Shown here: piece after piece, positions 2,564 through 63,377 of the stretch
Numbering within the stretch: the stretch's first letter is position 1
Layout: each line of letters starts with the position of its first letter
Assembly (NCBI GenBank): GCA_003971905.1
Contig: RSEE01000127.1
Span: forward strand, 62,001 to 126,000
Length of the DNA stretch: 64,000 bases
Reading direction: 5' to 3'
DNA from: Moniliella sp. 'wahieum'
Taxonomy: Eukaryota; Basidiomycota; Moniliellomycetes; Moniliellales; Moniliellaceae
Program-made: the position numbers and the translations under genes
Notes under the pieces: generated by a model
What the model saw: the letters and a program-made list of their open reading frames with translations, nothing else
Told to the model about the DNA's origin: nothing
The model's database searches: none

Positions 2564-2580
2564 ACCGGTTACCGGTTACC
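2564..2580. repeat. Heptamer array, core ACCGGT
   Basis: Two units of ACCGGTT followed by ACC give an exact 7-bp period. The unit is a 6-bp palindrome plus one spacer T. A second short array, with core ACTAGT and spacer C, lies at 2749-2765. Confidence 0.8.
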
Positions 2581-4211
2581 TTCCCTAAGCCCCTAATCCG
2601 GTATCTCTCTCTTCAGGCGTTGTGTCCATGTCACATGATGAGATCTGAGAGATTCACCTTATACAGTGCATGTCTTTCGCCTCATAATACCCTTTTTTCC
2701 TTGGCGCAAATATTAAATCACGATATCCACACACAGACCACCAATCAGCTAGTCACTAGTCACTAACCTATGCACTCGTTCTAGAGGGAACATATGCTTT
2801 CCACCATTGAAATTGATACAATTGATGGAAGAGAAGGTTTGGGTGCGGTGGGGCGGGTCGATCCGTTGATTATAATTGACCGACGTGCGCTCAGTAACAT
2901 GTAACAGAAAGGCTTGCTGACACTGCCCTTCCCCGTTGTGCCTTATATACTCTTTACACGGTGCAGCTGTATAATCGCGTGGGAGTAACTCGCGTAAGTC
3001 TATAGCAAAACCGGTAACCTAGTAACAACTGTCGTATATCTGTGGAGGTAAAATGCCATCAGGTGTGTCAGGCTCAGGGCCGCATAGCAGAGGCAGAGCC
3101 ATGGTTCTCGCCTGGCCATGTAGTGTCTGTGTCAGTGGGGTTCAGGGACATGTGACGAGGAATGTTATAATGCGGAGAGAAAGGCAGGGGCGTTGTTGGG
3201 CTCTGAGACCCTGCTGAGAGGCTTGATGTCACCGGTCAAGCTCAAGTCTCAGAGGTCCGGTCTGAGTGAGGCCTTGAAGCTTGAAGCTTGAGGGCTTGAA
3301 GGACGCAGTTGAGGATCTGAAAGGTAGCCGGTGGGTTGGGGAAGAGGGGGGAAGTGAAGTGCTCAGGCTGTTCAAGCGCTCGCGCAAGCCACGATATGGC
3401 GATTTGTGGCGACTATTACAGTAATTGATTGTGGCTAGACTGCAATAATGACAACCGACGACAAAACAAACATGGACCGCCGTTCTCCACTAGTTACCGG
3501 GCATGCATAGCAACCCCCCTGGGGAAAGCCAGGATAGGTAGGTATACTAGCACAGTCAGGAGAGGAAAAGATGCGCGAGAGGCAGGCCCGTTTCGGCTCT
3601 CTTCCGCCTCCTTGTTTGCTTCACTGCGAGTGCATTCCTCTGATATCACGCTACTTCTCTCTGTCGTTCTCGTTGCCCATACGGTACCGGGCGTGGATTG
3701 AGGTTCCACGCCTGGGGGGCGCAAGGACGGAACAGAGCTACACACCTTTTGCACAGAAGTATTGCTGGATAGCAGACGTGACTTGTGCCCCGATAGCAGA
3801 TGCTGCGGTTGGGCAGCACGTGATATTAGGGACAATGCATTGATGGATGAGATCGATAGGATCTGAGATGATCGATGAGAGATCTGAGATAGGATGGGAG
3901 GCGCGTCCAGGCCCCAGGGCAGGGTGGGGGACGAAATTGACAACTCGAGCTAATTGGCTGTTACTTTTTTTTTGCTCGACGCGCCGCATTGAGCATGGCA
4001 GGCACGAGGCGTGTGTGCAGCCTGGCAGCGGCCGTGCTGCGTACCTCCGCCTACAGCGCACTGGGCCCGTGCCACGGGCTGGACGTGGTCTTAGATACCA
4101 GGCACAGAGGCCGCGGCCCAGGTCATAAAATCAACCGAGCGAATCAGCGCTCTCTTCTCCGTCCGTCCTGGCAACCACCTCCATCTCTTCCTCTCCCGCC
4201 GCCTCCTCGCC

Positions 4212-7200
4212 ATGCCGCCGTCAACGAGCGTGGTCATCAGTCAGCTCGAGCCTGCGGTCTTCCTTCGCGGGCAGAGCGCCGCTGGCCAGGATGCGCGTGG
4301 CCGCCGCAGGCAGGTCAACATGACTGGCCAGCCCAGTCAGTTGCGTGCTCTCCTCAGCCTGCACGTCTCCAAGCCCATCCGCGTGCGCGAGATTAGCATC
4401 ACCCTTGAGGGCACCTCCCACACTGAGTGGCCTGAGGGGATCGGCCCCAACCGTCTCGAGCTCTTCGAGGACTCGGAGATCATCAAGCAAACCACCACCC
4501 TATTTTCCGCCCGCCGCGACAACGCCACGACTGCTGCGCCCCGTTCCTTATCTCAATCGGCTGGCAGCACCCCACTCTCTACACCCCCCTCAACGCCTGG
4601 ACCCGCCCCCAGACTTTTCAGAGGCCGCTCCTCCAGCTTGGACACGAACCAGGCGCCTTCCCTTAACGCCCTGCCCCCAGCCCCTCGCTCTGTCTCCTCC
4701 TCTCGCGGCGGCCGCAGCTCGAGTGCAGCCCGCGGCCCCACTCCAGCCGACCGCGTTCTGGCGGACCGCGAGAGCAAATCGGATATCCGATCAGCAATCA
4801 GCAATGTTGCATCGCGCGCCGGCGCCGCCTTGCGGCCGCCGTCTCCTTCCACCCCTATCCATGATCCAGGACGCGCATCGGGGTCCCCTCTACACTCTCG
4901 TGGCCGAGAAGGCTTTCCACGCAGTGCTCCAACCACACCAGGTGAAGGTCCTTCTCTCTTGAGCACCTATCCTGCGGTGGAGCGCGAACGGGTTTTGAGT
5001 CCCCTGGAAAAGGGGCTGAAGAAACTCAACATAGCTCGCTCTCGGAGCCGGAGTGCGTCACGAGAGGGGGGACAGCCCCCAGCGTCAACGCCAACCCGCA
5101 GCACAGCACGGGCACCGAGCAAGGGTCCAGACGGCGGACCGCCCCCCGCCCCATCGTCCGGGCGCGCTGCTGCCCCCATTGCCATCTCTCGTGTCCCTGA
5201 GTCTGAGTCGGAAGACCATGTCCCCGATTACTTCAACCACTCACCCCACCACATGTCCCTACCCAGCAGTGCGGTGACTACCCCTTACACGGAGGAACCT
5301 CCAACCTACACCTATGATCCCCCAGATGGCTCGTTGACAACTCTCTCCAGCTCGGACGAAGCACTTCCATTGAGTGAACCTACCTCGGCTGGCTCGGCTC
5401 CTTCGACTTTTACAGACTCGGGTGGGATGGCAGCTGTGCCGCCCCAGCCACAACCGTCCCCTTCCAACAGGGTGTCGCCCGAGCTCCGCCCTCCGGGGCG
5501 TCCCTCGGACCCTGCACCCGAGAGCGTCTGGGCAGCTGGCCCCCAAGGCAAGAGTATCTTGCACCATACGCCTCGTGAACGGACTCGGGACGTATCGATC
5601 CCTCCTCCCGGTGCAGTTAGGTTTGATCCAACTACGATGGGCACCCAAACACACGGCGTGTCCCCTCCGTCCGGCTCGGCTGTAACAAGCCCCCAAAGCT
5701 CATCTCCACACAACCCCTCCACTCCGCTCTCCGAGCGGCACCGGTCTAAATTGGTTGGTATGGGGATGCTCAGTCGTGCCCTTGCCGACCAGGGTCGTGA
5801 CAACGAAGACAATTCTGAATTTAAACCTGGTATGTGCCCTACTCTGCTCTTCTGTTCAGCGGTGTCTGACTGCTGGCTGTCTCTTGCACCTTCTAGGCAC
5901 CTACACGTTCCCCATTTGCATCCCTCTGCCTAGCAACCTACCGCCCACGCTGCACGCCGACTTTGGTGGCAACACGTATATGCTGAAGGCGCTCGTCCAG
6001 CGACCGGGAGCGTTGACGCCCAATCTGACGGCCGAGAAGGAAGTGACGCTGGTCCATGCACCTGAAGACGAAGAGCTGGAGCAACTGGATCCGATTGTGG
6101 TGCAGCGCATCTGGGAAGACGCTCTGTCCTACGTAGTGATCATCAGTGGCAAGAGCTTCCCTATTGGCGGGAGCAAGATTCCCATCTGGCTTAAGTTTGT
6201 GCCCTTGACCAAGATATCGGTGCATCGCTTGACGGTGAGTCTGGAAGAGAAGACGGATTACTTTGCCAAAGGGCGAAAGGTGGCTCGACACGAGAACCCT
6301 CGTAAATGGCAACTTGTCCATCTCTCCAATGCGGATGGGACGCCACTACTCCCTGTACCAGACGATCCGCAAGCCTATCGAAACTTGCAGAATGCGACAT
6401 TGGCCCCCCTGTTCGTGGCCGGTACGGACCCAGGTGATGTGATGGCGCCTGATCCCGAAGATGCATTGGCGCGGATGATGGATCCGAATGGGCCGTGGGA
6501 GATGGTTCTAGACGTGGAGATACCCAAGAAGCTGCCCAAGCTCAACCTTTCGTCGAGCCACGCCAAAAGCAGCATTGCTGTTCACCATACGCTCCAGATT
6601 GTGATCCGGATCGAACGTGGCGCTGATCCAGACTCTACCTCAAAGCGACGCCTGTTTGACATTGTGATTGAGGCACCCATTTCGCTCAACCACTCGTACA
6701 CCAACGACGATTGGATCAAGCTGCCTAATTACGACCAGCCCGAGGGCACACGTTCCCTGCCCACTGATGGTATGGGACAGGGTATGTTCCAACCCGATCC
6801 TGTTACCACGCCAGGCGCTCCCTCGTTGCCCCTGCATCGGGAAGAAGACCGTGGTCGGTCGCGCAATGCGGGAGGCATGTTACCGCGCCTATTGAGTTCC
6901 AGCGCCTCGCGCGACCGCTCAATGGCGCGGGGCCCGTCGAATGATCGCACCAGTGACCGTTCGTCTTCCGGGCCATTTAGTTCGCCCTATTCACACCTTC
7001 CACTCACACTCCGCACGCCGCGCTCGTCGGTAGAAGGCGGGAGCCCTCGTCCAGTTCTCTGCGAGGGCTGCCGGGCGGGAAGAAGGTGGGCGAGGCACCG
7101 CCTGCGCAAACGCAGTCGGCCGAGTCGCGCGCCTGTCTCGGCGCTGGTTGGCGTTGAGCCAAGCGAGCGCACGCTTTGGCACCAACCTCGAGCTTCCGGG

Positions 7201-7699: not shown

Positions 7700-9191
7700 A
7701 TGTCGCGCTCCAACGTCATCATCCTCGACAACGGCACTGGCTTCTCCAAGATTGGGTGCGTCCATTCGTCCATCTTCCCCCTCCCCGCTAACTCCCTTGC
7801 CCTCTTCCCCCTTCCGCAGCTATGCCGGCAACTCGGAGCCTTCGTTTGTCTTCCCCACTGCCATTGCGCTTCGCCCGCAAGGCGGTTCCGCTGCTTCCAC
7901 GGCTTCGGGACGGCCCAGTGTGCCGACCAAGCCAGCCGGACTGGGCGGCGCCGGCAACCTGGCGACAAAGCGCGGGATCGAGGATCTGGACTTTTACATT
8001 GGCGACGAGGCATTTGCTCACGCCAAGTCGTACCAGGTCGAGCAGCCCATCCGTCATGGTCTGGTGGACAATTGGGACCATATGGAACGCTACTGGGAGC
8101 AGTGCATTTTCAAATATCTTCGTGCCGAGCCCGAAGAACACTATGCGATGCTCACTGAGCCTCCGCTGAACCCGCCCGAGAACCGTGAGATGACGGCTGA
8201 AATCTTTTTCGAGTCGTTCAATATCAAGGGCCTGTACATTGCCGTCCAGGCTGTCTTGGCTCTTGCAGCTTCTTGGACGTCCAATAAGGTTACTGATCGC
8301 ACCCTGACCGGCACCGTCGTTGACTCGGGCGATGGTGTGACCCATGTCATTCCCGTGGCTGAAGGCTACGTGATTGGCAGTTCCATCAAGCACATCCCCA
8401 TTGCTGGTCGTGATATTACCTACTTTGTCCAGCAGCTGCTGCGTGATCGCGGAGAGGCTGCCAACATCCCTCCCGAGGACAGCCGCCGGGTCGCTGAGAA
8501 GATTAAGGAAGACTACTGCTACGTCTGCCAGGACATTGTTCGCGAGTTCCGCAAATACGATGCCGACCCGTACAAGTACTTTGAGCGCTTCACGGGCGAG
8601 AACAAGGTGACGAACAAGACGTACGATGTGGATGTGGGATACGAACGTTTCCTTGCGCCGGAGATCTTTTTCAATCCCGAAATCCTCTCCTCGGATTTCC
8701 TCACTCCGCTTCCGGAGGTGGTGGACAACGTGATTCAGGGCAGCCCGATCGATGTGCGCAGAGGGTTGTACAAGAACATTGTCCTTTCGGGTGGGTCGAC
8801 CATGTTCCAGCATTTTGGCGCTCGTCTGAAGAAGATCTGCGGGACATCGTCGATCGTCGTTGCTGCGTCGGAGCTGGCTGCCGGCGGCAACGCTCGCTCG
8901 TCCGGGATGGACGTCAACGTCATCTCGCACAAGATGCAGCGCTACGCGGTTTGGTATGGTGGTTCTCTCCTTGGGTCTCTGCCCGACTTTTACAACTTTT
9001 GCTACACCAAGGCCGACTATGATGAGCACGGCCCGAGTATTGTCCGCAAGTTTTCGATTCTGGGCGCGCGTGTGAGCACTGAGACGGGATTGTACTGGCC
9101 CTGGCCTAATCCGCCGATCGATCAAATGCACTCCATCTCGATTCTGTTACATGTTACACCTTTGGCAGGTCTGTATGTACATTCATACTAA
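7700..9191 (+). CDS. ARP3: Actin-related protein 3 (Arp2/3 complex)
   Basis: Arp3 is one of the two actin-like subunits of the Arp2/3 complex, which nucleates branched actin at endocytic patches. Exon 1 (7700-7755) encodes [19 protein letters not shown], the nucleotide-binding phosphate loop. The intron at 7756-7819 rejoins in frame to YAGN.EPSF. Further actin-fold signatures are visible: [17 protein letters not shown], the GDGVTHV loop, and [15 protein letters not shown] near the C-terminus. The frame then runs open to 9191. The last 40 residues after FSILGARV do not look like a normal Arp3 tail. A GTGAGC at 9072 and a CAG at 9166-9168 could define a last intron, so the true 3' end is uncertain. 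No frame breaks were seen, unlike most neighbours. The gene points toward the convergent septin gene. Confidence 0.95.
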
Positions 9192-12250: not shown

Positions 12251-13258
12251 TTCTGGGAAGTATAAAGGACAAGAAAGAGCGGGCGTGAGGGGGGGGTTGA
12301 GTAGTTGGATAGGTATGTGGGAACGGTTGGCTGGCACGATGGTGGCGCAGGTCCACGTGCTACGGCTAATGGGCATAAGCCGAGTGATTAATAGACCACG
12401 GCCGTGACTTGTGGCATTTTAAATTTCAAATGTCACATGCATCGACATAATCCTCAGAGACCCTTAAGCTTTAAGCTTAAACGTCTTCAATTGAGGATGC
12501 ACCACCACCCCATCCTGGCAATGCGCTGATCGTGTTGGCCCCCACGTTCTTTCGTTTGGAGAGTAAGCCTATGGCAACCCCACACATCTGTAGAATACGT
12601 TGGATGGGAGCATCGGGGGTGTCCGAACAGCATCGGAGAGGGAGTTCAGCAAGGGTGACGCTCTCCCCCCCCGATGTCGCAGAAAGTTACCATAAACCGA
12701 CAGTAGCTTGAGCGGGGCGCCTATAGGCGGCGTACCTGGGCAGCATACCTATTCCTGAGAAACGAAGTAGTTACTCTCACTCCTCAGTTGAGATATGGGA
12801 TGAGAATTCGTTGGGAGGAAGCGGGGCCAGAGGTCTTGGGCCCCACAGAGTGTACGTCTTCACCAGTGACTTCATCCACCTTACCATGTTAGCATATGCC
12901 GTTTCGCGGCTCTCTTATGCACCACTATCGCCCAGGAAGCATGTCGGCTAACCTGCTTGCCAGTGTATCGCGTGTGTATGCTGAAGAGTATAGGATGGGC
13001 CCTGTAGCCTCCAGCCGCCTTCGTGGAATAGAATCGGATACATTTGGTTCTCTTGCCCGGCAATAAAGGGAAGAGGAAGACACATGCATTAGCCAGGCGC
13101 TCCAGTTGAGCGGCTAGCACAGCTCGTGTGATAACATTCGAAGAACAAAAAGTTGTAAAACACATCAAACACACCGGTACAAGGAGGACACCTGGTGCAG
13201 CGAAGAGCGCAGGCCTCTTGGCAAGTAAGGCACCAGGGGGGGAGAGCGCTTCCCGCCT
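12251..13258. other. Intergenic, no gene seen
   Basis: About 1 kb separates the glutaredoxin start from the Cdk1 stop. It contains a short AAGCTTTAAGCTT repeat near 12467. No frame with a recognisable domain was found. The part next to 12250 is the likely glutaredoxin promoter. Confidence 0.5.
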
Positions 13259-14345
<1,087 letters not shown>

Positions 14346-14973
14346 CGCGTCGGGGGCAACTGTGTGACCCACGCTGGATTGATGGGGGGAGGTCTGGAGT
14401 GGTGGCACTGGGAAACAGGCAGACGCGGGCTCGGCAAGCTGAACGGCGTTCAGGTTCAGCGCGCAAGCGGGCCGCAGTTGCCGCGGCAGTCGCTTTGTGT
14501 CGGTCGCCAGTTTTTGCTGCAGGAGCTGTGTGGCGGGCAGGGCGGTGGGCGGAAATCAAAAACGCGACGTCACGCTGTCCCGCGTCACGGCATCACGTGC
14601 AACAATCGAACATTTGAATTTCACAGCGTGTGCGATCGCTGATCACCGATCTGCGCATCGGTGTACCAGCGCTCAGGCTGCGAAAGACAGTGAATGAGGA
14701 GCCACTGCAATACCCCCCCCCCAGGACTCACTGACCACACCACTCTTCTTTCCTGCGCCTCATGGAATTCAGACTGAAGGTCTCTTTCCAGCACACACGT
14801 ACAGACCTGAATCATCGATCAGATCCAGATCTCAGATCTCAGAGCAAAGCAACTGAGGCGTGCGGGGTTGCACCGCGGAATCGGCGGAATGATTGGATAG
14901 CACAGGGGCGCCACGTCCAAACTGCCCGGTTAGCTTGGGGAGCTTGCTTGCGATCCCCCATCTAACCTCGGCG

Positions 14974-16576: not shown

Positions 16577-16990
16577 GATATGGTTACAGTATAGAGATGT
16601 GCCGTCCACAGTGTACGGCACAAAAGCACCACTGGTGAGTTACTATTTGTGATCGCGTTGAAGGTGTCCATTGTGTGCAGTAACCCTAAGGCGCTGATGA
16701 TTAGAATCGCGAGGGAAGAAGCACTATTAGGATCGGGACTTGCTGCTATGTAGTGTACGCGCAGCGCTTGAGAGATGGAGGCTCTTTCGGTCATATTGTA
16801 CACCAGTCTTTCCATATACAGGCACGCATAGCTGTTCCTACTTGCAAGGGGCGCATGATGCATGATCGTGATCCCCGTGGTGTGCTGCCTCGTACGTAAG
16901 TGCGCGGCTGAGCGGTAGAGCACACTGGAAGCACTGTCTGCTTCCCCCAATAATCCGCTCCACAAGTATCGAACGCTACAGCCTGGGTAG

Positions 16991-17016: not shown

Positions 17017-17519
17017 ATCGTCGCGTCATATTCATACAGGAGTGTTTCCGGCCGTGGCGGCGGGAAAAATTTAATCCAACAGGCACCTGCCTAGTCAGCT
17101 TCAAGCTTCAAAGTGACTGGTGACTGCACTGAGGGCACGGAGGTACTGAGTTAGTACTGAGGTACTGAGAGAAGTACTGAATAATACTCACCGACTGAGT
17201 GAGTCCCAGTCCGAAGCATCGATCAGTACACTTCGCCGGGTCTCAGTGCTGGCTGAGTGGCGGCAGGGTGGCAGCAGGCGCCAGGTAGCGCTTTGTATGG
17301 TAAGTAAACCAGTCGAGTTGCGTATGGGTCTGGAACGTGGGAGTAGGTAGCTCTCTGGGGGCCGCAGTTGTGCGCTGGCGCCAACTAGCAACTAGGCTGG
17401 CTGCTGACTGTTGTTTGCTCAGAGTGAGTGTTTTCTCTATCACACCCCCTATTTGTTATTCTGCACCATCACCCCCCCACCACTGCCACCCCCCCCACCA
17501 CCTCTTCCTGCTCCCTCAC

Positions 17520-43172: not shown

Positions 43173-43353
43173 GTTCATCTCGCTACTAAGCATACCCACT
43201 GCACTCTGCTCCAGCTGATGCCCACTCGAATCCCTCCCAGCTCGTCCCATTCTCCTTGTGGCCACCACCATTGATCCGATGACCAGGACCAGACTTTCCG
43301 TCTTTTGGTCACGGCATGCTATTTGGTCCTTTTTCCTCATCATCGTCGCCCCC

Positions 43354-48649: not shown

Positions 48650-51353
48650 TCACTTCTTCTTGTTGCGCTTCTTGCGATTCTTGTTCTTGCTTCCAGGCGT
48701 CTTGGGAGCGACAGTTTCCACCGCCCCACCCGATGCACTCTCAGTCTCAGGCGGAGGCGAACCGGTCTCCCACTCTTCCTCCTCCAACGTACCTGCGGAA
48801 GAGGCCGGACTGGCTGGCTCCGACACAGAGTTGGGATTGGTGGCGACGCTGCCTCTGATTGAGAGGAAGCGGAAGAATCACCGGATGAAGCAAGAGGTTC
48901 TTCAGCCTGAATGGAGGGAATCGGTTCCTCATGATTGCTCTGCAATGGGGTCTCTTCCACAGCAGGAGCCGATTCCGCAGCGGGAGCAGATTCCACAGCA
49001 GGGGCCGATCCCACCTTCGAAACTGACGCCCCAGTGGATTCGGGCTGACTTCCTCGGCGCTCCGGACGGGGGAAGGGTTGAGTCGTTTGGTCGACAGGAT
49101 GGGGCTCCGGCTCTGTATTGCTCGACACATCAGTCGGCTCGGGGGTGGGGACGGCGGTGTGCATCGTAATTTGCGGCAGCAACAGGAAGCGGAGAGGACA
49201 CTTGATCTTCACTCGGCTCGGGAGGCTTAGTGATGGGGTCTGCGGCCGCCACCGACGCAGGCGGGAGATCTTTCTCCTGCCCAACCTCCACTCCGGTCTC
49301 CACCCCAGGCTCCACCACGGTCTCTTCTCCAGCCTTCTTCCCAGTCCCATTCCCGGTCTTCTCACCTGAAACAACCTCGAATTCAGGCACATCTCCTTTG
49401 CTCTCCTCCATCTTGGAGAGAACAGGTGAGGCAGGGGTTGGGGCAGGGATAGTAGTAGGTGCTTCCGATGGCGCAACCGCTTCCTCCAGTTCCGAGCTTA
49501 GGGAAGGAGGGGTCGCAGTGACGGGCGAATAAAACTGGTTCGGGTTCGGGGCTGGCGAGTGGCACGCTCGGCTCGGTGCGATGATGAGCAGAGGAGACAG
49601 CATCTGACGTGGCAAGTAAGGACTCGGAACCGACAGTTTCAGATGTGGAGGGGTTCTCCACCTCAGATGAAGTCCCTTCGGTTTTCTCCTCGCCCGCATC
49701 AGACACTGCGACTGAAGAAGTAGGCGCCGAACTCTCCATTGGGGTTGCTGCCGAAGGCGCAACAGTGGCGTCACTCGTAGCATGAGCCTTAGGTTCCAAC
49801 GGTTCAGACTCGGTCGGGACCACAGAGGCCAATGGGGATGGAGAGGGCTCAAACGTCTCAGAGGCCAGAGCTGGTGGTTGGCCGGGGAAAGGGTCAATGC
49901 AGCGGGGGTGCGCTCGACTGAAGGGGAAGCGGTCGCAAGTCCATGCTTGATCGGGGCAGCAGCCTCTTCCGTTTCCTTGGCCAGCATAGTGGCCACCGCG
50001 GCCTCGGCCCCACCCTCGGCCTGGGCAGCGCGCAGCATCTCAGCATCATGTTCAGTTTTGCGCGCATGCATGTCTTGCATATGTTGCTCGTCCAGACCCA
50101 CCAACTCTTCTTCCACGTCATCCTCGGGCTGAATAGCCCAGGCATCTGCACCTTGTCTCGACGAGGTGGGCGACACGTTCGCCTGTCCCACCCTGAGGGG
50201 CGAAGAGGAGGCCACAGCATCCATGCTTCCCAACTGCGGCTCCGCTGCGGTCTGAGGCACTGGAGGGGAGCGGGAACAGGAGAGAGGCAGTGGAAGCTGG
50301 AGGAGAAGTGCCACTTGGCTCATTAACCGTTGTTGCGTTCTCTTGCTCTTTGAGCGCACGCGCTTTGTTACGAGGAAGACCCAAAGACAACTTTTCTGAT
50401 CCTGGTAGGCCACCATCAGTGATACCAAGAGGCGAGAGAGGTGTGACATCCAAAGCGGAGGCAGCAGCTGGGGAGGCGGCAGAGTTGGCTGACGGGGCGG
50501 CTGCTTCAGCGTCAGCTGCTGCTTCCGCTTGTGCTTCTGCTGCTTCTGCTGGCGCATTTGCTGAAGTTACAGTTGTAGACGAGGGGTAAATGGGCGGTTC
50601 CTCCGCAATGCCCAACAGGGATCGCAGCACACGGTTCTCCTCAAGTAAGTGCTGCTCATGGACTTGGCTCTCAAGAGCTGCGTCGGCAGCATCAGCAGCA
50701 GGGTCGTGCCACTTGCCGAAATAACCGCCGGAACCATAGAATGAGGGCATGCGAAGCGCTGGGGCTGGAGTTGTGACCAGAGGCAGACGTTGAAGGGTCG
50801 AGTGGGGCGTCGGACAAGGCATCGGGATCTTCGCCCTCAGCAGCGCGAAGCGCACGACGAACAAGAGAGCCGAGGTGTTCGAGCGTGGCAGTACTTGCAG
50901 AGCTGGCCGTCAAGACCGCCTGGGCCTGGTGGTTGTAGCTTTGGCTGCTGAGCTGGCGCTCGTAGTGGGAGGTGAGGTTGAGCACGTGGGACTGGGTTGC
51001 GTGGCAAAAGGCGCGGAACTTGGCCATGACCTGTTCCAGGGTATGGTGGTAGTCGCGAGCAAGGAGCGTGAGCTGGCGGTTCTCATACGACAGGGCATTG
51101 TTGTCGCGCACGAGGCTGACATGGAGGCGCTCCAGCTCGCTGCTATACACCTCGTTGGTGACATCGACGTTGAAGCGGCGCAGGGCAAAGCCAGTGCGGG
51201 CATGGTGGAGCTGGCCCTTGAGGTCGTCGGCCTGGCGCTGGAGGACGGCCGCGCGTCGCGATTGGACTTGAGCTGGGCACTGAGCTCGCCAAGCAGGGCC
51301 CAGAGCTGGGAGACTTCGTCGCCAGCGTCGCCGTCGACGGGCACCATGGACAT
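48650..51353 (-). CDS. SIKE/FGFR1OP2-like coiled-coil protein (STRIPAK)
   Basis: This is a probable homolog of SIKE/FGFR1OP2, called SCI1 in Sordaria, a coiled-coil subunit of the STRIPAK phosphatase-kinase complex. From the start at 51353 (MSMVPVDGDAGDEV) the N-terminus is helical. The family pattern is visible in LSYENRQLTLLARDYHHTLEQVMAKFR, compared with the ENK.L...LE.HQ.ALE.IMSKYR pattern of animal SIKE. It continues with LGSLVRRALRAAEGEDPDA and VHEQHLLEENRVLRSLLGI. The long remainder is Ala/Pro/Ser/Glu-rich low complexity. It ends in a basic tail (KNKNRKKRNKKK) with the stop at 48650-48652. The frame shifts many times in the low-complexity part. It is the only conserved gene between the two inverted arms. 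Confidence 0.65.
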
Positions 51354-52084
51354 GGCGAGGAAGGGGGCGGCGGTGGAGCGGACGGACGGCTGCAAGCTCT
51401 CGGCCAGCTAGCCAGCTCGGCTGCTCCAGCACCTCACCGCCTCCCAGGGGCGGATCGCTGCAATTATGTCAGCGCCCTGCCGGAACGGCGGTGCAGCATC
51501 CAGCGCCCAGCCGCTGCAGGCTGGCGCTGCGCCGCACCGTCACGCGCCACGGCCCTTCGTCACCGGTTGCTTGCCCCGCCTGCTGCGGGCGCGGGGCGAG
51601 GCACTGCTGCAGCCGGCCTATCACAGGGACGCGTGCCGGCGTCCCAATACCCAGCGCACGACAAGTCTCCATCTCGCCTCTCTGTATTCCTCCCTCCACA
51701 CCGGGCAGAGTGCCCAACCCCCGGCTACCACAGCTCGGTTCCTCTGCCCACCCCGTCTGCACCCGTCACGGCGTCCCTCCCTTCCTTGACCAAGGGGACC
51801 ATTTATATAGCTTTCCATGCCCCTCTCTGGCGCGGATTCCGATCCTATCAAGCGCGAGATGTGGCATGGCGACGACGATTTTCATACAAGCTTAGGACCT
51901 ATAGTACAAAACGGCCTCAGTACTAAGTAACTAGCCAGGGGAAGGCAGATCAGGCATCAAGCCCCTCCGACGAAGAGGAGAAGAGCAGGAGTACGAGTCT
52001 AGGAGGTTCGCCCCAAGATGTAACAGCCCACAGAACGGAAGGTCGTGACTCATGGTATGTCTCTTGCAAGGGCTTTTGTTGTTG

Positions 52085-52382
52085 GTGGGATTCCAGCGGG
52101 GCTCGGGACAACTGGAGAGGCCTCTCGGCATATAGCTCGATGAGGCAAGTAAGAGGAGGAGTTCCCTGTACTGTGTATGGATCAGATTGACGGAAGTGGG
52201 GACGCCAATTGTAACAGTTGGGGCTAAGAGTGAGAGAGACAAAAGAGCCTGTGAGTGACGGGGACAAGGCTGTTGGGGGAGGGAACAAGAGGCATCGGGC
52301 AGTAGGGAAGAGAAGCACAAGGATGGGAAAGGGCGAGATACACAGGATGCAGCGTTGGAAATTAGAGCGAATACCTTCGGCG
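52085..52382 (+). repeat. Direct repeat R1, left border of arm B
   Basis: It aligns in the same orientation with parts of 59983-60567. Shared blocks include 'cgggacaactggagaggcct', 'aagtaagaggaggagtt', 'atggatcagattg' and 'ccaattgtaacagttgggg'. By eye identity is about 90%. R1 lacks about 285 bp present in R2. It ends only some 16 bp before arm B homology begins. Confidence 0.8.
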
Positions 52383-52398
52383 ACACCAATGTGAGTTG

Positions 52399-53367
52399 AA
52401 GGTGCCAAATGATTGTTCGCCCCCCTCAAGAGATGACTTTGCCCCCCGTCAGAACCATTCGCGAATGGCGCGAGACAGACGTGCCACCCACAGCGCCAAC
52501 CTTCCAATCAGCGCCAACCTTCCAATGGCATCTGCGTCCCAGCATGAATTGGATACCGATGACTTCGGACCTTTGAAGGACATCCTGGTACGTCATTCAA
52601 GTCCTACCGTCTACATTGCTAACGATTCAATATGGGGTACCGCAGGATCAGGAACAGGCAGCGTGGTTCAACGAGTTAACAGTTTCCTGGCCCGAAGACT
52701 GCAAACTGCAGTGCTTGGCTCTCCTAAAAATTGCCCAACTTTACCCAGAATACCCTATTCCAACCCTCTCCAAGCTCAACGCCATTGAGGAAGCGAGTGC
52801 TGGAAAGCCCAAGGACGTATTTCAACGGCTGATGGCCGTGCAAAGCAGGTGTCTACTAGGAGCCTTGTGGACATTCTTCCGCTAATGTACGAATCAAGAG
52901 AGCTGCGGGAGGCTATGAGTGACATGCCAGTCGTTCGCGACCTGTGCGAGAACATCAGTGACGGCTCACGCTACCGGACAGTTCGACAACCTTCAATACG
53001 TCTGAGCGACGAGTCACTTCTTTGGCTCCATATGAGCCAGCGTTATGGTCTAAAAGAGCTGGGGCTGCCCTGAGGCTCGTGAGGCCGACCGTTTGGTTTT
53101 GGAAAGAGGATACTGAAGGGACTCGAGATGCCATGGCGATCATTGAGCAACTATATACGACTTGACCGGCCCCTGGCTACTGGTACCGAGTCTGATCCTA
53201 TTAGTTCGACGAGGACGGGCAAAGAGCGCGTCGTGCTACTGAGCACCCTTGGGTCCTTAGGCGAAACGGCACGTAGGGTTAAACTTGTCGACACTGAAAA
53301 GGGAAAGCGATTATGCCGCCGAATCCTTGCCGAGTATTGTCTCCCGATCCCGAACGCATCAAGGTTA
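52399..53367 (+). pseudogene. Truncated copy of the multi-exon gene, arm B
   Basis: It starts abruptly at the KVPND of the third 65-residue repeat and follows arm A closely through LVDILPLMY.SRELREAMSD, VWFWKEDTEGTRDAM and SPDPERIKV. After 'catcaaggtt' near 53367 it jumps to sequence homologous to A 43345, just past the stop codon of the full copy. Thus both the N-terminal finger region and the entire C-terminal half are missing. An 18-bp tandem duplication (SANLPISANLP) lies near 52493-52530. There are additional frame breaks. It is not expected to make a functional protein. Confidence 0.85.
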
Positions 53368-53542
53368 GATGATAAAGAATGAAAGGACCAAACAACATGC
53401 TGCGACCAAAAGACGGAAGGACTAGTCCTGGTGATCGGGTCAATGGTGGTGGCCACAAGAAGAATGGGACGAGCTGGGAGGGATTCGAGTGGGCATCAGC
53501 TGGAGCAGAGTGCAGTGGGTATGCTTAGTAGCGAGATGAACG

Positions 53543-53603
53543 TATGAACACAGTATGCACACAGTATGCACACAAGTATGCACACAGTATCCACACAGTA
53601 TAA
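53543..53603. repeat. Minisatellite, arm B
   Basis: About four copies of AGTATGCACAC, the reverse complement of the arm A minisatellite at 43083-43172, at the homologous position. Confidence 0.85.
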
Positions 53604-54042
53604 GTAGATTATGGTGTCCGTCTCCCCTACCTCCACACCACTCTTCGATTCTCTCTTAACCTCGTCCAGACTCACTGTGGCCGATCCCGTGTGATGGCCA
53701 CACCTATATAGTCCAACTGGTCGGAGAATACCCTCCGTGTTCCATGTGGTACAACTCATGGAGATAGTAGTAGTGGCATTAGTTACAAAAAATATACCCT
53801 CGCTTATTAGTCGGAGTAAGCGGAGGCAAGAGGGGTGTGCAAAAAGAGTAGGCATGTGCAAGCACACGCCTCTCCAGTTTTGGTGTCGGAACAACAAAAC
53901 CCATAAGAAGGCAAAGGTGAGTAACGACTCGTATGGTCGTCAGGAACATCGAAGACCCCTATGATCATCAGGAGCATCGAAGACCCCAAAGCGCGGCGCC
54001 AGCATCAGCGGCTGTCTCAGGGATCAGAGTTGACAGAGCCGT

Positions 54043-55972
54043 TTAGAGATTCTGCCAAGCCTGGAAGAGGGGAGTGCCGAGACCACTGGCCGGGTCCCAG
54101 CCCTGCTTGGCAGGGAAGTAGAGAGTGTTATCTTCAAAGCATCCACCCGTCTTGCCCGTAGTAAGGTCGGTTAGGGCCGAAGGGTTGTCGTACAGCTTGG
54201 AGTGGAACCAACCCACGCGGCCCTTACCGTTTTGCTCGCGGTAGTTGTTCAGCAAGGCAATGTGAGCTGCCACAATGGGCGCGGCAGCGCTGGTACCGCC
54301 TACGGTCGTGTCTTGCCCCGATACGGTGATCTGCACGTTGAGACCAAGGGCAGCCAAGTCGGGGAAGGCGCGGCCATTGCGGTTGTACTTGCCGCTGTCT
54401 AGGTTGCCAATGCTGTTGACATACGACTTGACTTGGCTCGCTTGGTACGAAGGGGCGTCAAAGATGTTGGAGAAGCCAGCACCACTGTGTTCATTTGAGT
54501 CAGAAATTAGCACAGCAGCTTGGTAACTAAGAGGAAGGGAATAACAGTGAACGTACCTCCAGAAACCGCTCTCGTTGCTTCCATCGACCGGGACCTCGGG
54601 GCTCGTGTTCTGGGTTGCACCTACAGACAAGATGTAAGGGCAGCCAGAGGGGAAGGTGGGGTTGAATGAAGAGTCACACGTCTCTCCCGAAGATGCCTGT
54701 GTTCATGAGAGCGATCCAGACGAGAGAGTCAGTTAGTACATAAATCAAAGGACGTGTGTTGGTGATCTCGGAAGAAGGATGGGTGGGAGATACGAGATGA
54801 ATATTAGGAAATGGGACAAACCTGGTTGGAGTTGACACCGTTGTCGCCTGAGGCAACCACAACCGTAGTACCTCCCGCCGTCAACTTCTGAGCAGCGTTG
54901 CAAAGCGAATGGGCATCACTGGGAGAAGTTTGACTCATCGTCACCGTACGAGATAGTAATCACACCGGGCTTGGTGCTACAACAGAAAGTCAGTTGGATA
55001 GAACAGCAAAGAATGGAAAATCAATTACGCACCTCTGGCCGAGAACGTAGTCAAAACTGTCGACAAAGAAGTCGTCATTGGAAGGGTTGCTGCTGCCGTA
55101 GGAGAGGAATGTGGTGTGGAGGGGGGCACTGATGCCACTAACCATTTCCACATCGAGCATGGACTCGGTACCAGGGTTGCTGGGGTCATTCGTGGCACCA
55201 CCCGCAGTTCGATGGTGACCTTGTATGAACCATGGTCCGTCTGGGATTGCATGAACGAGGTGAGGTCGCTCTGCGAAACGTACTCGCCAACATAGCCCAT
55301 GACGAGGGTGTCAACAGTCCCGCTCTGGGGGCTGGGTGTGTAGCCGGAAGACTGATACTGGGACTTGATGCAGCTGATAGAGATGGCGTCGTCGTTGCAG
55401 CCACCGGCACTCGCAGTGCGCTCTTCGATCATCTTTTGCTTCAGGATGGGAACGGAGCGGCGAATATTGTTGAACGACGTAAAGGGGTGAACGTTGAGGA
55501 CAGCATCTTGCAGCTCATCCGGCACAGTGTATTGACTAGTACGCAAGATTTTGTTGCCCGTGACACTGTGAGTGTATTGGGACAGATTGGCTGACCAGCT
55601 GCGTTGGCTTCTTCGGCCGAGTGAGTGACGGTGATCTTGTCCCCCCACTTGTTGATTTTAATGTCTTTTCCTCCAAACTTGGTCAAGTGAGCCTTGACCG
55701 ACTGGACGTGGGCATCCGAGGCACGAGTGTAGCCCTGGAGCTCTTCATCCGAGAGCCACTTGCTGTCCGACTTGGCAATCTCAGCCATCTTGTTGTCCAG
55801 CGCCGCCTGGCCTGCGGCCGGGAGCTGCACCGAGTAGGTCACCTCAGTAGAAGGGTCGACTGGGGTACCGACGGAGTAAACATGGGGGATGCTTAGGCGC
55901 AACAATGCGCGCCTGGGCGCCAGCGGCGGCGGCCAGAACGAGCACGGAAGTGAGGAGGTTCTTGTTGAACAT
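54043..55972 (-). CDS. Sedolisin-family (S53) serine protease, arm B copy
   Basis: This is a second copy of the secreted protease, on the opposite strand. From 55972 the signal peptide is intact (MFNKNLLTSVLVLAAAAGA), unlike copy A. The prodomain, EAMLDVEMVSG-type Glu/Asp region, GGTSAAAPIVAAHIALL and GWDPASGLGTP all match copy A, and here the end reads LFQAWQNL in frame with the stop at 54043-54045. A three-base difference after RIVAPK (near 55900), and shifts near 55590 and 55195, disturb the frame. The catalytic C-terminal 150 residues are one continuous frame. Introns occupy the same places as in A. Of the two copies, this one looks closer to functional. Confidence 0.88.
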
Positions 55973-56048
55973 GTCGGAAGGAGCTGCGAAGGTAGCGGGT
56001 CAGGCAGGGGCTGTGAACAGTGCATGCTCAGCGCGTTTCCCGACCAGG

Positions 56049-56056
56049 CTTATATA
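56049..56056 (-). promoter_or_regulatory. TATA box of arm B protease
   Basis: TATATAAG on the minus strand, 76 bp before the ATG, at the same distance as in arm A. Confidence 0.65.
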
Positions 56057-56307
56057 CATACCATCACCACTGACGCCAACGGCGATGCAACACATGATCA
56101 TCGATATCCTCAGCCTCCTCCGCACCCCTCCCCCCTGCCGACAACCTCGATAAATGATCGCTTTCAGGCTGGTGATCGCGTGATCTAAGCATGGCTTGTA
56201 ACATGATATGCTTTCGGATCGCATGCCACAGACATGTGTTACGACGCGAAGTGGCTGATGCCAGTGACGTACTGATGGCGCTGATAGGTATGGCCTGTTG
56301 ACAGGTA

Positions 56308-56320
56308 AGTACTAAGTACT
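56308..56320. repeat. Heptamer pair, core AGTACT
   Basis: AGTACTA (56308-56314) followed directly by AGTACT (56315-56320). Confidence 0.8.
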
Positions 56321-58309
56321 CTCAGGTTCTTGGCACCAACGTAAAAGGTTTACTAGTTACTACGTTTATTAGTACTCACGCGTCACGAACAGCACGATCT
56401 CATTTCTGTACTCTGCCATACCACATGGTATAGACATGTGGTTTAGACAGGGCCGACAACATCTGCGGAGGTATTTATATTATCCCTTTTCGGAGCTTTG
56501 GGTTAAACCGGTTACATGTTACAGGTTACCGGTTACTGCAGATACGATAGGCACTGTATTAGGAGGCCCTGATGGGCCTGATGCATGATATACTTCAGCC
56601 TGAGACCTGAGCTCAGGCGTGATGCGTGATGCAGATCGAAGTGGCTTGAAGCTTGAGCTTGAGAGGCTAAGCGCTGAAGCTAGCGCGCTCAAGAGCCTCC
56701 GCCTGTGAGCATATGAGGCCGGAGGTATGTCTGTGAGGCCTGAGTATATGAGCGATGAATATGAGCGCATTACACCGGTTTGCTCGGACCCCTGTCTCTC
56801 CTCTATACCAGGCCCGAGACTCAGTCTCAGTCTCAGGATCTCAGGACCACAGGGCTATACCACATGTAACAGTACTCATTGTTCGCTTTAAGATGTCGAT
56901 AATCGACAAAGAAGAGATAAGACCGGTGTATATAACCCGGAGCTTTTGTAACATGCGTATAACATGTTAACATGTCGATTAAAAGGTTTATAACTTCCTC
57001 ATTATTCGATCATCGCAATGTATAACGGCGCTTGGAGAGAGATTCTCGATAGCACGTAACGAGAAGGGAGGAGACGATTGATCTATTGATGATCATGAGA
57101 TCCGCGAGAGGACGCAATATGCAGGACGCAAAACATATGATGTCGGTGAATGACATTGGCTGAATCATGAATCATGAATTGATGATCGACAATGGCAGTT
57201 CTTCGCAACGGAACAAGTGAAGCCGAACAGCGACCAGCACTGTGGCCTTGCTTGCCCATGCCACGTCTCGCTGCATAGGCGTGGGGCCCTGGCATCGAGC
57301 AGGTGGAGGCGTGTGCCCAAAATGATCGAGATGCATCAACGTTGTTCAGCCGAGCGACGCTTGACGCGTGATCGCTGATCAATGATCCTGACGTTGATCT
57401 TGTTGATCTCTCCCGGGCATTGAGCCAGTGTCCCACAGCACGATGAATGGACGTCACGTCCAATCGATGAGCGGCTCAGTGGCTCGGTGCAGCACCAGCC
57501 TTCGGGGGTGTCTCAGGGGGTTCCTTGGTCTGTTAGATGCACATGGCCATGCAGCATCCTTACGAACCACTGACATGTGGCCATGTGATGTGTGATGCAT
57601 GTGAGTGATGCTATTGTGGCTTGGTTAAGATCGAAAGAACAGGTAAAACCGGTTACCGGTATTCGATGCACTTGTGAAGCTCTTGAAGCTTGAAGCTTAA
57701 CGCGTACTGATGCGCTGATGCATGATGTGTATGATAGCGCCTATCCATTATCGATCATCGGCCTCATCGGATACCACCTGCTTTCCCCGCCACCTTTTCG
57801 TGCCAAGGCCTCTCCCAACGCGCTCATCTGCGACGACGCAGCCGCTCCGTCACCTTGCTTTGCCAAGCATTCTGTTGAAAACCACACGGGTACTACTGAG
57901 GGCTGATGAATCCATCTGTTTTGAGAGCTGAAAAAGGGTCGAAAGCTATAGGATGGCGTCTGTGTTCCGCCGACATAGTGGCCAGTAGACCAGGTAGACC
58001 CTGGTAGACCAGAGGCTAATGTGCAAACAGTGATTGCTCGAGACCTCTGATATTGATGATCGACAATCGATAATCGATAAGCCAATCGAGCTAATCAATC
58101 GTTCACATGTCGATTATGCACCTGAGGCCCTGAGTCGGAGGCTTGAGGGCCTTACCAATGGAATATGGGTAACCAGTATAGCTGGTGAAAACTTTATTGT
58201 TGGGACCCGTGGTCCCGTACTTAGGCCAAGGTGCCTCATCACCCTTCACCCCTGATTTGTCCTCCCAAGCCTCCACGTGTATACTCAGGCTTGTTTGAAC
58301 CCCTGTCCC

Positions 58310-58900
58310 TAGGTGGCACAAGGCTTAGACCTCAACCACCACCATCGCGATTTGCATTGCTCTACATCTCCAGAGGTTCTCACCCAATCCTTGGGTTCCT
58401 CCGGTCTTACATTTATAGCCGGTGTTTTACTCCTGAGGTGCTGGGCGATGGAAGAGAACCACATCGCAAAGGGGCCAGGGATGTCTTCGTGTGTTGATGC
58501 CATATTATAGGCTACACAGCCAGTCGCGTCCAAGGCGAAATTGTATTTAGCACAAAGTCCAAGGCAATAATTTTGAGTGGCACTAATTTCTAACCACGTG
58601 AGACGCCTACAGCCTTTTTGCAGTCCAAGGTACAAATGCCTTGGTGCTCTCCAAGGTAAATCTGGCCCTGCCAAAGGCCGTCATATCAACCCCAAATTGC
58701 CTTCGTCGTCTCCAAGTCCACTTCTTCTTCAGTTTCCTCAAGTACAAATGGCCTACATTCACGGGAAGGCTAGTACTACGGCCTTCGAATGTGGCAACGC
58801 TCACTGGAAGCCATACTGCATACCGGCAGCGAGGTTCGTTAGAATGAATCAAATGCATTTCGGGCGATGGTCGACAAGAGCCCACGAAGAAAGGATAGAA
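58310..58900 (-). pseudogene. Frame-broken gene remnant specific to arm B
   Basis: Minus-strand reading gives coding-like pieces in two frames: GRARFTLESTKAFVPW in one, then PWRAPRHLYLGLQKGCRRLTW and NMASTHEDIPGPFAMWF in the other. The 3' part overlaps fragment F. No family is recognised. Because arm A lacks most of it, it is either an insertion into B or a loss from A. Confidence 0.35.
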
Positions 58901-59982
58901 ACGTGAGATTCAGGATGAGCAAGTTCGTGTACCGCAGTTTGGGCATTCGGGTTCTAAGTGCGAAGTACGAGGGGAGTTTGCCTCGGTTGGCCTCGCAATT
59001 CTCTTGTCCATCATGAGCACATCGATCCATACCCTAATGAACATTTGGCGGTTAGGAGCGGAGCCTTCCCTCGTCTCAAATGTACGCATGCACTTGGCGC
59101 TGAAGTGATTGGACCTTTGCTTGCACCGGTTTTCCTGACAGAAACTGTAAAAGGCTTAGCCAGTGAAATGAGTCAATCTCCAAGCAAGGCAGAGTCGGGG
59201 GAGAATGGAAAAGATGTTTAGTAACGAGTAACATGGTTAGTAACGAGTAAGATGGTTATACACACCGCTTCCTGTACTAATGCCTGTTCCAGCGCCACCA
59301 ACTCATTTGCTGCGTCCCAGTGGGGAAGTCCGGACCAGGGCTTCTTTGCTACTCTCCCCAGGTGGATTCGAGGGACACGGTTTGATCGTTTTGACTCGCT
59401 TATATGTTGACTGTGATCATCCGGCTCCCAGTCTGTAGACCAGGTTCGCCTCGGTTTCATCGGCTGCCACGCTGGTGTCCCAGCGTGTTATTGTCCCTGT
59501 GCTCTGCACTCTCCTGTGTGACTCACTGGCCCTGTGCCTAGTCCGGCCTCCGATATAGATGCCTCTGTACCCAGACTCAACTCTGGCTCTAATAATCCAT
59601 CACCTTCTCCTCATCCTTCTGCCCGTCTGGCTCCCTATATGCCAACATTATACACGCCTCTGCCTCACTCCTTAGGCCTTACCATTCAGTGGATCTTGTT
59701 AGTTTCGTTTGTTGCTAACGCGTGGTTCAAGGGAGTGGAAGTGGGTGATTAGGATAACTTGACTGCTCTCGGGTCTTCTTATATGGAGCAGAAAGATCCG
59801 GTGTCTTCTTTGAGAGGGGATCAAGACAGTGGCGTGTCGCAATGACATATCGGGATGGGCCGGTTTCAGGATGGTTAATGGTACAACAGGGCCTCAGATT
59901 GGGCAGTGGGTTGTAGGGACGAATCGGCACCATATATTGGCGAACAAGTCTATACGATCCATGTTCCATCACAAAGAGCCGG

Positions 59983-61972: not shown

Positions 61973-62000
61973 AGGCCTAACGCCTAACGCCTAAGGCCTC
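61973..62000. repeat. Heptamer array, core AGGCCT
   Basis: Four units in register: AGGCCTA, ACGCCTA, ACGCCTA, AGGCCTC. The two inner units have a broken palindrome but keep the period. Confidence 0.85.
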
Positions 62001-63360
62001 ATATGTCGCTGGCAACCGGAACTGGCTACAGATTTCCGCGACTCGCGCACTCTGGATTAGTTACCGTCGCTCCTCGTTACCCTCCTTTCTATTCTCCCTA
62101 TTGTATTCAAGGCGGAGTATATAGCGGCAGGCGCCAGCGCGTCAGTAGCTTACAAGAAGCCATCCCTGACTGTTTCCACCCTGCACAGGGTTGAGTTTTA
62201 ATGAAGACAAGGTCTATAGAGATGGAGAAAGAGGGAGAAGGTGATGGATCTATTGCAAAAGCGAGGAGCCCGCCGCTGGGGGCACAGAACGTAGGGGAGA
62301 TCGGATAGAACAACGCGATGCGTGGTGTGATCAGCTGCATGAATGATGGCGCTGACAGTAGCTTCCTGTTCTCTCTTTTCTGTTCTCTGCCTGCTTCTGG
62401 CGCTTTTTATCCTTGTCATGCATGTCAACAGTACTGTTTTTGCCATGTTTTCAAACGACAACAATAACTTGGTTACGTAGGTACTAGTCCGCAGTCAGTG
62501 CATTCTATGCTAGGTGCACGAAAGGTTTACCCGGTAGTACGTTTGACGATTCTGATGGAAACAAGTTGCATGGGAAGTATCTCTATATTGCTCACGCGCT
62601 CACACCGATCTCTTGGGCCTTACTCGGGGTTGCTGCTTCTCTTCGCCTAGCGAAGTACGGAATACGTCCATCTCAAATGCTGTGGGAAGCCAGGCCGGGA
62701 TCGGCCATACGATCAGTCACCAGTTCACCCATGGGCCACCGGGAGGTGTGATGGTCACCAGTGCGGTCACTGTCACCGATCATTTGGTACTTAGATCTTA
62801 GAGCTTAGCCTACACGCTTAGTCCGTTTTACGTTTAGTACGTCGAACTTCAAGCTTCAAGCTCCAAGCGAGCTCCTATTAGGGATGCATGTGATGTGTGA
62901 GTGTGACTACTGGCTTAGTCACTGTGCATGTGACTTGTCGCCGCGTCTGCCGCCCAGATCAGCCAGCGCTCAGCTAATAGTCTCGTATGGCATCGCTAAT
63001 AACCTGCTCACCGAGTAGCGACCGGCGACCGGCGGACACGCTACTAATATTCAGTCTGAATACCCCGTACTCGGAACTCGGTGTCCCTCGGCACGTTTCG
63101 TTCTCTCGCCGTGCTCGGCGATCAGGCGCTTCAGGCTGAGTAAGCTAGTAACGGACTGCCCAGCCCCGGGCCTCAGGGCCTGCTTGAAGCATGCGGAACC
63201 CGTACAGCGAACTTCGGGCTTTCGCATACCGTGGCTTCCGTGTAACGTACACCGTTTCCCGGCTATCGTTTTTACCCCCACTTACCGGCTTCCGTTCTGT
63301 ACTAGTCATTGGAGTAACAAACTTTCGGCCTTAATAGGCCGTACTGGCAGTTACCCAGTT

Positions 63361-63377
63361 ACCGGTTACCGGTTACC
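63361..63377. repeat. Heptamer array, core ACCGGT
   Basis: ACCGGTT twice followed by ACC, preceded by TTACCCAGTT. It is not a telomere repeat. Confidence 0.85.

Follow-up and report, generated by a model that had tools for sequence, protein, structure and literature searches.

Introduction

Symmetric staggered strand transfer leaves a fixed-length duplication with a symmetric centre at its target, and off-centre opening of hairpin ends leaves mirrored bases, mostly no more than two. The V(D)J coding joints made with RAG show the second of these: off-centre hairpin opening produces short stretches of mirrored bases there, without any target duplication. In CNG triplet repeats, the unit is a palindrome plus one base. 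Here we describe a family of period-7 arrays in 64,000 nucleotides of the basidiomycete Moniliella sp. 'wahieum' (assembly GCA_003971905.1, contig RSEE01000127.1, positions 62,001 to 126,000; hereafter the window), in which a 7-bp site centred on TXA (X, any base) is duplicated with mirrored bases at the junction. The mirrored bases are shared with V(D)J joints, whereas the 7-bp target duplication is found just here. We propose that the arrays are probably stacked excision scars of a hairpin-making cut-and-paste transposon with a 7-bp target-site duplication (TSD).

TSDs of 7 bp have been described for Kyakuja, of the KDZ group, in Agaricomycotina and for hAT7 in rust fungi, and both agree with the length inferred from the scars here (PMC12730594). 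Kyakuja has a KDZ transposase, a TET/JBP gene in some families, and CA..TG termini without terminal inverted repeats (PMC12730594). In the present case, KDZ and Tet_JBP models are unmatched and pairs of TXA 7-mers show no excess of CA..TG ends. Among hAT elements, Ac/Ds leaves short deletions and palindromic insertions in Candida albicans, with P insertions of at most three nucleotides (PMC5873905), and TcBuster scars, at a target nnnTAnnn, have been interpreted as hairpin products (PMC3499496). Short palindromic bases are common to both sets of scars and to those described here, and TcBuster also has a T..A pair at the target centre, as TXA does (PMC5873905, PMC3499496). However, no hAT domain was matched here, and stacked arrays do not figure in the sections of these two accounts that bear on scars (PMC5873905, PMC3499496). 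Insertion and excision of hAT-like elements are reported from the mushroom Marasmius oreades (PMC9674265), and the domesticated hAT transposase Kat1 of Kluyveromyces lactis makes hairpin-capped breaks (PMC4763223). Among the papers listed, the open-licence literature gave nothing on point for heptanucleotide or palindromic heptamer arrays or for stacked footprints.

Palindromic heptamers are enriched at period 7

We found 57 exact period-7 duplications of at least 14 bp in the window, compared with 3.5 per dinucleotide-preserving shuffle. Full dyad symmetry was present in 38 of them (0.2 in shuffles), and 36 of these 38 were of the form A-NNNN-T. Other periods gave fewer duplications and few dyads (period 6, 23 with 4 dyads; period 8, 10 with 2; period 9, 4 with 2). 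Since the rule was derived from the window, it was tested on a separate 200-kb sample of the same genome, picked by position from contigs C1-C4 and blind to arrays. This sample contained 135 period-7 duplications against 13.0 in shuffles, and 78 units with a full dyad against 1.8; A-NNNN-T accounted for 76 of the 78, and the spacer base was C or G in 66. Period 6 was frequent (110 vs 13.5) and seldom palindromic (19 dyads), while dyads at other odd periods numbered 9 at period 5 (3.7 in shuffles), 0 at period 9 and 1 at period 11. The palindromic excess in the sample is thus concentrated at period 7, and the arrays are not a product of chance.

A first-pass annotation of the window had described A-NNNN-T palindromic heptamers as enriched, and had taken a single architecture across unrelated sequences as a sign of something beyond ordinary slippage that generates or keeps them. 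Both statements hold as far as generation goes, and in the 200-kb sample palindromic heptamers were indeed the commoner kind and A-NNNN-T cores enriched. Of the 21 ranges it listed, 20 are exact period-7 copies of the unit given, the sole exception being 61973-62000 (AGGCCTAACGCCTAACGCCTAAGGCCTC), in which the unit is just partly palindromic. Its remark that cores made of A and T only were not seen holds for the arrays of the window and fails in the wider data: over all data (313 sites) each of the 16 4-bp palindromic cores is present, with TTAA, ATAT, TATA and AATT as the first palindrome at 9, 3, 3 and 2 sites.

Across the whole genome (69.5 Mb), four TSA triplets (S in IUPAC notation) spaced 7 bp apart occurred 7494 times and the reversed pattern 1548 times. 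Similarly, AAGCTTGAAGCTTGAAGCTT was found 549 times forward and 489 times in reverse, with 0 and 0 for the reversed control. When the arrays were masked (264 kb), a 4-bp palindrome between two TSA triplets still occurred 100 times against 7.2 in shuffles, with no excess for A-S-T (2 vs 4.2), C-S-G (3 vs 13.4) or G-S-C (19 vs 19.0). In 312 kb, two TXA triplets around a 4-bp palindrome, with X a single base, were found 410 times against 6.8 in shuffles, and the A-X-T, C-X-G and G-X-C versions at the same spacing did not exceed chance (10 vs 10.8, 24 vs 34.0 and 29 vs 33.0). The arrangement with three bases as X and a 2-bp palindrome, likewise of period 7, was also in excess (73 vs 1.8). Smaller excesses were seen with no base as X and a 4-bp palindrome (35 vs 14.2), with two bases and a 2-bp palindrome (38 vs 13.5) and with three bases and a 4-bp palindrome (16 vs 1.2); two bases as X gave 3 vs 3.2, and a 6-bp palindrome 9 vs 3.0.

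The 200-kb sample holds 152 sites, which would scale to about 50,000 in 69.5 Mb. Open frames of at least 250 codons contain 15 of 237 sites although they cover 36% of bases, a scarcity that may reflect target choice or selection. Contig C1 has clusters near 138-140 kb and at 322.4-322.9 kb, each with four to six TSA arrays in 0.5-1.7 kb (among the matches listed), which suggests local re-use of accessible DNA.

A 7-bp duplication with mirrored bases at the junction

Contig C44 carries a homolog of the window segment at 24.5-27.8 kb, with 88% identity over the query. Pairwise comparison of about 38 kb, covering the window against stretches of C44 and the two arms of an inverted duplication inside the window, revealed 99 clean indels of at least 3 bp. 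Lengths 3 to 9 were represented by 31, 13, 6, 8, 15, 5 and 5 indels, with a peak at 7; in these counts one C44 change may appear twice where both arms were compared. The indels show the mutational step. A non-palindromic zzTXAnn becomes zzTXAnn-n'n'-TXAnn, that is, the 7-bp site centred on TXA is duplicated with up to about two mirrored bases at the junction, reverse-complementary to the end of one copy. Where the other copy is trimmed by as many bases as are mirrored, the gain is exactly 7 bp. Among clean indels, zzTXAnn, mirrored bases and a trimmed copy accounted exactly for 9 of the 15 at 7 bp and 3 of the 5 at 9 bp, and at other lengths for 1 of 13 (4 bp), 0 of 6 (5 bp), 3 of 8 (6 bp), 0 of 5 (8 bp), 0 of 1 (10 bp) and 0 of 2 (11 bp). 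In control sets of 3000 each, no random 7-bp insertion fitted, and 359 random exact tandem duplications of 7 bp did. We hold this mutational rule to be very likely correct.

In a three-way comparison of the two arms and C44, private 7-bp gains were present in the right arm (GCATCAC), in C44 (TCAGGCC) and, several times, in the left arm. Elsewhere the long form was common to two copies, which could be older gains or loss. The right arm alone among the three copies also contains GGACGTGACGTCC (within 57052-58197, minus strand), a 13-bp odd palindrome around TGA that resembles a scar with a longer mirrored stretch.

In the other register, the array unit is an odd palindrome, NN-TXA-NN, with X mostly C or G. 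The unit had been described in the first-pass annotation as a 6-bp palindrome plus a spacer; the duplicated object is instead the 7-bp site NN-TXA-NN. The 'spacer' base is the target centre, and the A...T ends are the TXA triplets of adjacent copies. At the junction, one copy has up to about two bases exchanged for the mirrored end of the other, and this gives rise to the 6-bp palindromes.

Intact second copies reveal the target without presupposing a register. Among such 7-bp duplications, the register with T third and A fifth was found in 12 of the 29 that carry a single mirrored base and in 9 of the 22 that carry two, whereas the four other registers of the same duplications gave 1, 3, 0 and 1, and 6, 1, 0 and 0, respectively, about 4% being expected from base composition. 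TXA-centred duplications with an untrimmed copy had 0, 1, 2, 3 and 4 mirrored bases at 24, 10, 32, 0 and 0 distinct places; with both strands counted, the numbers were 48, 11, 33, 0 and 0 (shuffles 1.2, 0.2, 0, 0 and 0.2). Two mirrored and two trimmed bases are indistinguishable from three and three, because T complements A; this ambiguous class falls inside 574 counts (shuffles 6.8), in which arrays are counted repeatedly. The junctions thus combine a direct duplication of fixed length on a target motif (7 bp, TXA at its centre) with short mirrored (P) bases of limited length, and they have the form of the scars classically left by cut-and-paste transposons that form hairpins on the flanking DNA.

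Other lengths were considered and rejected. An 8-bp duplication, as in ordinary hAT elements, is contradicted by the full copies, 39 at period 8 and 195 at period 7. Short-overhang duplications of the Spo11 or Top2 kind do not agree in length. A 3-bp TXA target duplication around remnants of palindromic terminal repeats is ruled out, as the mirrored bases equal the flank; among 301 TXA-N4-TXA decamers, the flank classes were 0/2 in 37, 2/0 in 33, 0/1 in 11, 1/0 in 8 and 0/0 in 13.

Arrays and scars in the window

Arrays in the following list are exact period-7 duplications with a full dyad and are strand-neutral; the homolog, where named, is the copy on contig C44.

2564-2580, array of ACCGGT+T
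2749-2765, array of ACTAGT+C
3273-3291, array of AAGCTT+G
8846-8859, array of CGATCG+T, one of the two that are not A-NNNN-T
9145-9158, array of ACATGT+T
12464-12478, array of AAGCTT+T
14826-14843, array of AGATCT+C
16853-16866, array of ATGCAT+G
17097-17111, array of AAGCTT+C
18987-19005, array of ACATGT+G; homolog 7 bp shorter, fitting the rule (1 mirrored, 1 trimmed)
24662-24675, single-step scar CCTCA-GG-CCTCACT; 7 bp missing in the homolog (2 mirrored, 2 trimmed, minus strand)
24825-24840, array of ATCGAT+T
25067-25081, 9-bp scar CTGATC-GAT-CTGATC; homolog without the 9 bp (3 mirrored, 1 trimmed)
25207-25222, 9-bp scar TGTGATG-CA-TGTGATG; homolog without the 9 bp (7-bp duplication plus 2 mirrored)
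25274-25288, scar or array of AGCGCT+T; homolog without the 7 bp (GATTAGC to GATTAGC-GC-TTAGC)
25377-25392, 9-bp scar GATGATT-AA-GATGATT; homolog without the 9 bp (GATGATT)
25516-25554, array of AACGTT+C, 35 bp longer than the homolog
25793-25805, single-step scar TTACT-AG-TTACT; homolog without the 7 bp (TGTTACT to TGTTACT-AG-TTACT)
25952-25971, left half of a hybrid array, copies of GGTCACC, ACCGGT+C
25969-25995, right half of the hybrid array, copies of CATCATG, ATGCAT+C
26188-26210, array of ACATGT+C
26311-26317, unscarred AGTGAAC; homolog has AGTGA-CT-AGTGAAC
26376-26414, array of AAGCTT+G, 28 bp longer than the homolog
27688-27719, array of AAGCTT+G, about 13 bp longer than the homolog
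30337-30350, array of AGCGCT+G
30438-30452, array of ACGCGT+T
32360-32373, array of ATCGAT+C
32424-32440, array of AAGCTT+C
37250-37264, array of AGCGCT+G
38471-38484, array of AGGCCT+C; both homologous copies 7 bp shorter
38649-38661, single-step scar TTCAGC-G-TTCAGC (1 mirrored, 1 trimmed); both homologous copies shorter
38911-38943, array of AAGCTT+C
38954-38969, array of ACCGGT+A; copies of GGTAACT extend to 38978, a hybrid by eye
39650-39664, array of ACTAGT+T
39742-39755, array of ATCGAT+T
39940-39964, array of AAGCTT+C
39992-40006, array of AGGCCT+T
40417-40443, array of ATGCAT+C; these 27 bp are missing in both homologous copies
56306-56320, array of AGTACT+A
57161-57179, array of TCATGA+A, the other that is not A-NNNN-T
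57682-57698, array of AAGCTT+G
58065-58080, array of ATCGAT+A
62847-62862, array of AAGCTT+C
63358-63378, array of ACCGGT+T
63441-63454, array of AACGTT+A

Array growth and hybrids

Two TXA triplets were found at 125 sites of the 200-kb sample, three at 18 and four at 9. Of the 125 two-TXA sites, the 7-bp repeat matched on one flank in 82, on both in 22 and on neither in 21; the one-flank match in 82 is what a single step predicts. Over all data, 61 of the 313 sites have at least three TXA triplets; 13 of these chains are hybrids, their palindromes differing to the left and right of one heptamer, and the 200-kb sample has six hybrids among its 27 longer chains. The hybrid at 25952-25995 consists of two copies of GGTCACC, one GGTCATG and three copies of CATCATG. 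Its left copies mirror the left half of GGTCATG and its right copies the right half, X is C throughout, and GGTCATG, which is itself neither palindrome, can be read as the original site. Among three-TXA stretches, X was constant in 13 and not in 4 where the two palindromes differ, and constant in 84 and not in 13 where they are equal (shuffles 0.2 in all). Hybrids that keep X indicate that arrays grow, at least in part, through repetition of the duplication step on both sides. Long homogeneous arrays may also gain copies by slippage.

To a repeat finder the arrays look like a 7-bp minisatellite. They differ from minisatellites in that the copies come from TXA-centred duplication with mirrored junctions and that hybrids mostly keep X and change the palindrome.

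Search for an element

Element scans spanned 4, 9 and 12 kb. The terminal-repeat scan, which misses elements longer than 9 kb, cut by the end of a locus or without terminal repeats, yielded one weak candidate among 3621 TXA pairs, the same rate as in the non-TXA control (43 of 130560). Terminal-repeat scans over duplications of 4-11 bp gave, among the matches listed, arrays paired with arrays and background. Sample stretches with at least four matches look like short interspersed repeats or gene families, and no candidate was found among them. The rve (integrase) model had 148 matches in the genome, and the profile search therefore works on it.

For one 10-kb query, L028, no full-length homologous copy was found, which suggests that only part of the assembly is duplicated. 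Sample locus L041 carries an insertion of about 235 bp at 1786-2021 relative to the right arm of the window; the repeat is present elsewhere in the sample, and the insertion ends overlap by 15 bp, as expected for a long target duplication. In the window, 25076-25191 is a short interspersed repeat with at least 33 genome matches at 79-85% identity.

Other features of the window

The inverted duplication has arms at 37200-43000 and 53400-59900. Both match one stretch of C44, and in the first stretch compared the right arm was nearer to C44 (0.949) than to the left arm (0.916). A Pfam scan of 20 reading frames of the window matched six: arrestin, actin, Zn2Cys6, Pro-kumamolisin twice and subtilase. 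Zn2Cys6 and other domains in this set are in keeping with a fungal source. Each arm carries a Pro-kumamolisin domain, and the subtilase match is in the right arm. Between the arms, 43500-51000 contains several open frames of about 250-480 codons, and seven frames scanned at 43.5-51 kb had no Pfam match. The window scan found no palindromic heptamer array at 40456-56305. In addition, a CCTCT microsatellite at 28264-28319 is about 150 bp longer in the C44 homolog, and a 195-bp tandem repeat at 46859-47370 (2.6 copies) is shorter there.

Discussion

The scar-like junctions and the two-sided growth lead us to favour, as the probable origin of the arrays, repeated visits of a transposon. The element would insert at a 7-bp target with TXA, mostly TCA or TGA, exactly at its centre and would duplicate the 7 bp. 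On excision, the transposase would leave both flanking ends as hairpins; a host nuclease would open these 0-2 nt from the tip, and end joining would seal the break. The resulting scar would be zzTXAnn, up to about two mirrored bases taken from either end, and the second copy. Trimming would often equal mirroring, giving a net gain of 7 bp and a perfect A-NNNN-T palindrome at the junction. A revisit of any TXA within the scar would add 7 bp, and repeated visits would build homogeneous arrays, or hybrids with different left and right palindromes around the same X. We infer from the form of the scars that the cutter would be a transposon rather than a bare enzyme, that hairpins and a nuclease would take part, and that stacking would be by re-insertion rather than partly by slippage.

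Several results weigh against a visiting transposon of this kind. About 340 kb of the 69.5 Mb yielded no resident element flanked by 7-bp TXA duplications, and CA..TG ends occurred in 11 of 3567 pairs of TXA 7-mers compared with 578 of 109274 for other 7-mers. Genome-wide, the models for KDZ (PF18758) and Tet_JBP (PF12851), for the hAT dimerisation, hAT RNase-H-like and zf-BED domains (PF05699, PF14372, PF02892) and for Plavaka were unmatched, as they were in every control genome; a single MULE model (PF10551), matched in 3 of 14 control genomes, was likewise unmatched. A few scars have three to five mirrored bases: with a trimmed copy, three mirrored were found once with 1 and three times with 2 bases trimmed, four mirrored twice with 2 trimmed, and five mirrored once with 1 and twice with 3 trimmed. 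Untrimmed 7-mers not centred on TXA also exceed shuffles (two mirrored, 23 vs 1.6; one, 56 vs 9.0; none, 1844 vs 37.6), which may in part be the same arrays in other registers together with other tandem repeats. By a rough estimate, multi-copy sites seem several-fold commoner than independent hits predict. Six of the 15 clean 7-bp indels do not follow the rule, so other processes act too. Finally, palindromes in Ds scars have the complement of the base next to the element at their centre (PMC5873905), whereas those here are even (n1n2n2'n1'), and the chemistry is thus not exactly Ac-like.

The missing element bears on a first alternative, in which an orphan or domesticated hairpin-making transposase, with no transposon, cuts TXA with a 7-bp stagger and the ends are filled, hairpinned and rejoined. 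To our knowledge, no bare enzyme duplicates its own cut site, which counts against this proposal, and duplication is the normal outcome of insertion. It draws support from scars that are dense (152 per 200 kb) with no element in about 340 kb and no match genome-wide to the transposase models tried, and Kat1 shows that a domesticated hairpin-making hAT transposase exists (PMC4763223). However, scars are permanent and elements are not: scars pile up while elements move on, so that few or extinct elements could suffice, and degenerate or unfamiliar transposases could escape detection that is not exhaustive. We consider such an enzyme unlikely. Equally unlikely, in our judgement, is a transposon-free mutator of this kind that has put 7-bp TXA-centred palindromic duplications into the non-coding DNA of the genome, by extrapolation at tens of thousands of sites; if real, it would make a whole class of fungal 'minisatellites' a record of enzymatic breaks, programmed or stray, and not of slippage.

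Replication slippage stabilised by hairpins, in the manner of CNG repeats, would expand slipped palindromic heptamers. Consistent with some growth of long arrays by this route, three or more copies were found in 9 of 38 palindromic units of the window and in 1 of 19 other period-7 units, although the difference was small in the 200-kb sample (16 of 78 vs 10 of 57). As the first step, slippage is contradicted by the indels between homologous copies, and it makes neither palindromes from non-palindromic sites nor hybrid arrays. Palindromes ending in C or G, whose hairpins are stabler, make up just 2 of 78, and dyads at the other odd periods are few (9 vs 3.7 at period 5, 0 at period 9, 1 at period 11). 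The arrays differ from CNG repeats accordingly, as their first step is not slippage and their A...T ends oppose hairpin stability, and we regard this explanation as improbable.

Template switching, or repair in the style of polymerase theta, would fold back, copy two or three bases and then resume on the template it had left. On this view the scar divides into zzTXAnn, the 3-base mirror n'n'T and XAnn, with T and A as the return homology, and the weaker excesses at other sizes (35 vs 14.2, 38 vs 13.5 and 16 vs 1.2) point the same way. Such a process predicts a wide spread of sizes, whereas a single-base X with a 4-bp palindrome dominates (410 vs 6.8), and it leaves TXA at the centre of untrimmed duplications unexplained; we give it little credence. 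That the arrays are selected regulatory sites, tandem binding sites for a dimeric protein retained in promoters, would agree with their scarcity in long open frames (15 of 237 sites in 36% of bases), but this is also expected of 7-bp insertions. All 16 palindromic cores occur, copy number often varies between homologous copies and the gain obeys a mutational rule, and we find this reading barely credible.

A history of stacked excision scars raises the questions of which enzyme is responsible and whether it is active at present. With it, the heptamer 'minisatellites' of repeat finders would become a readable record of break-and-join events, in which each scar reveals the target length, the target centre, the offset at which the hairpin was opened and the end that supplied the mirrored bases. 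Array growth would be possible without slippage, and the signature is simple to scan for in other fungi.

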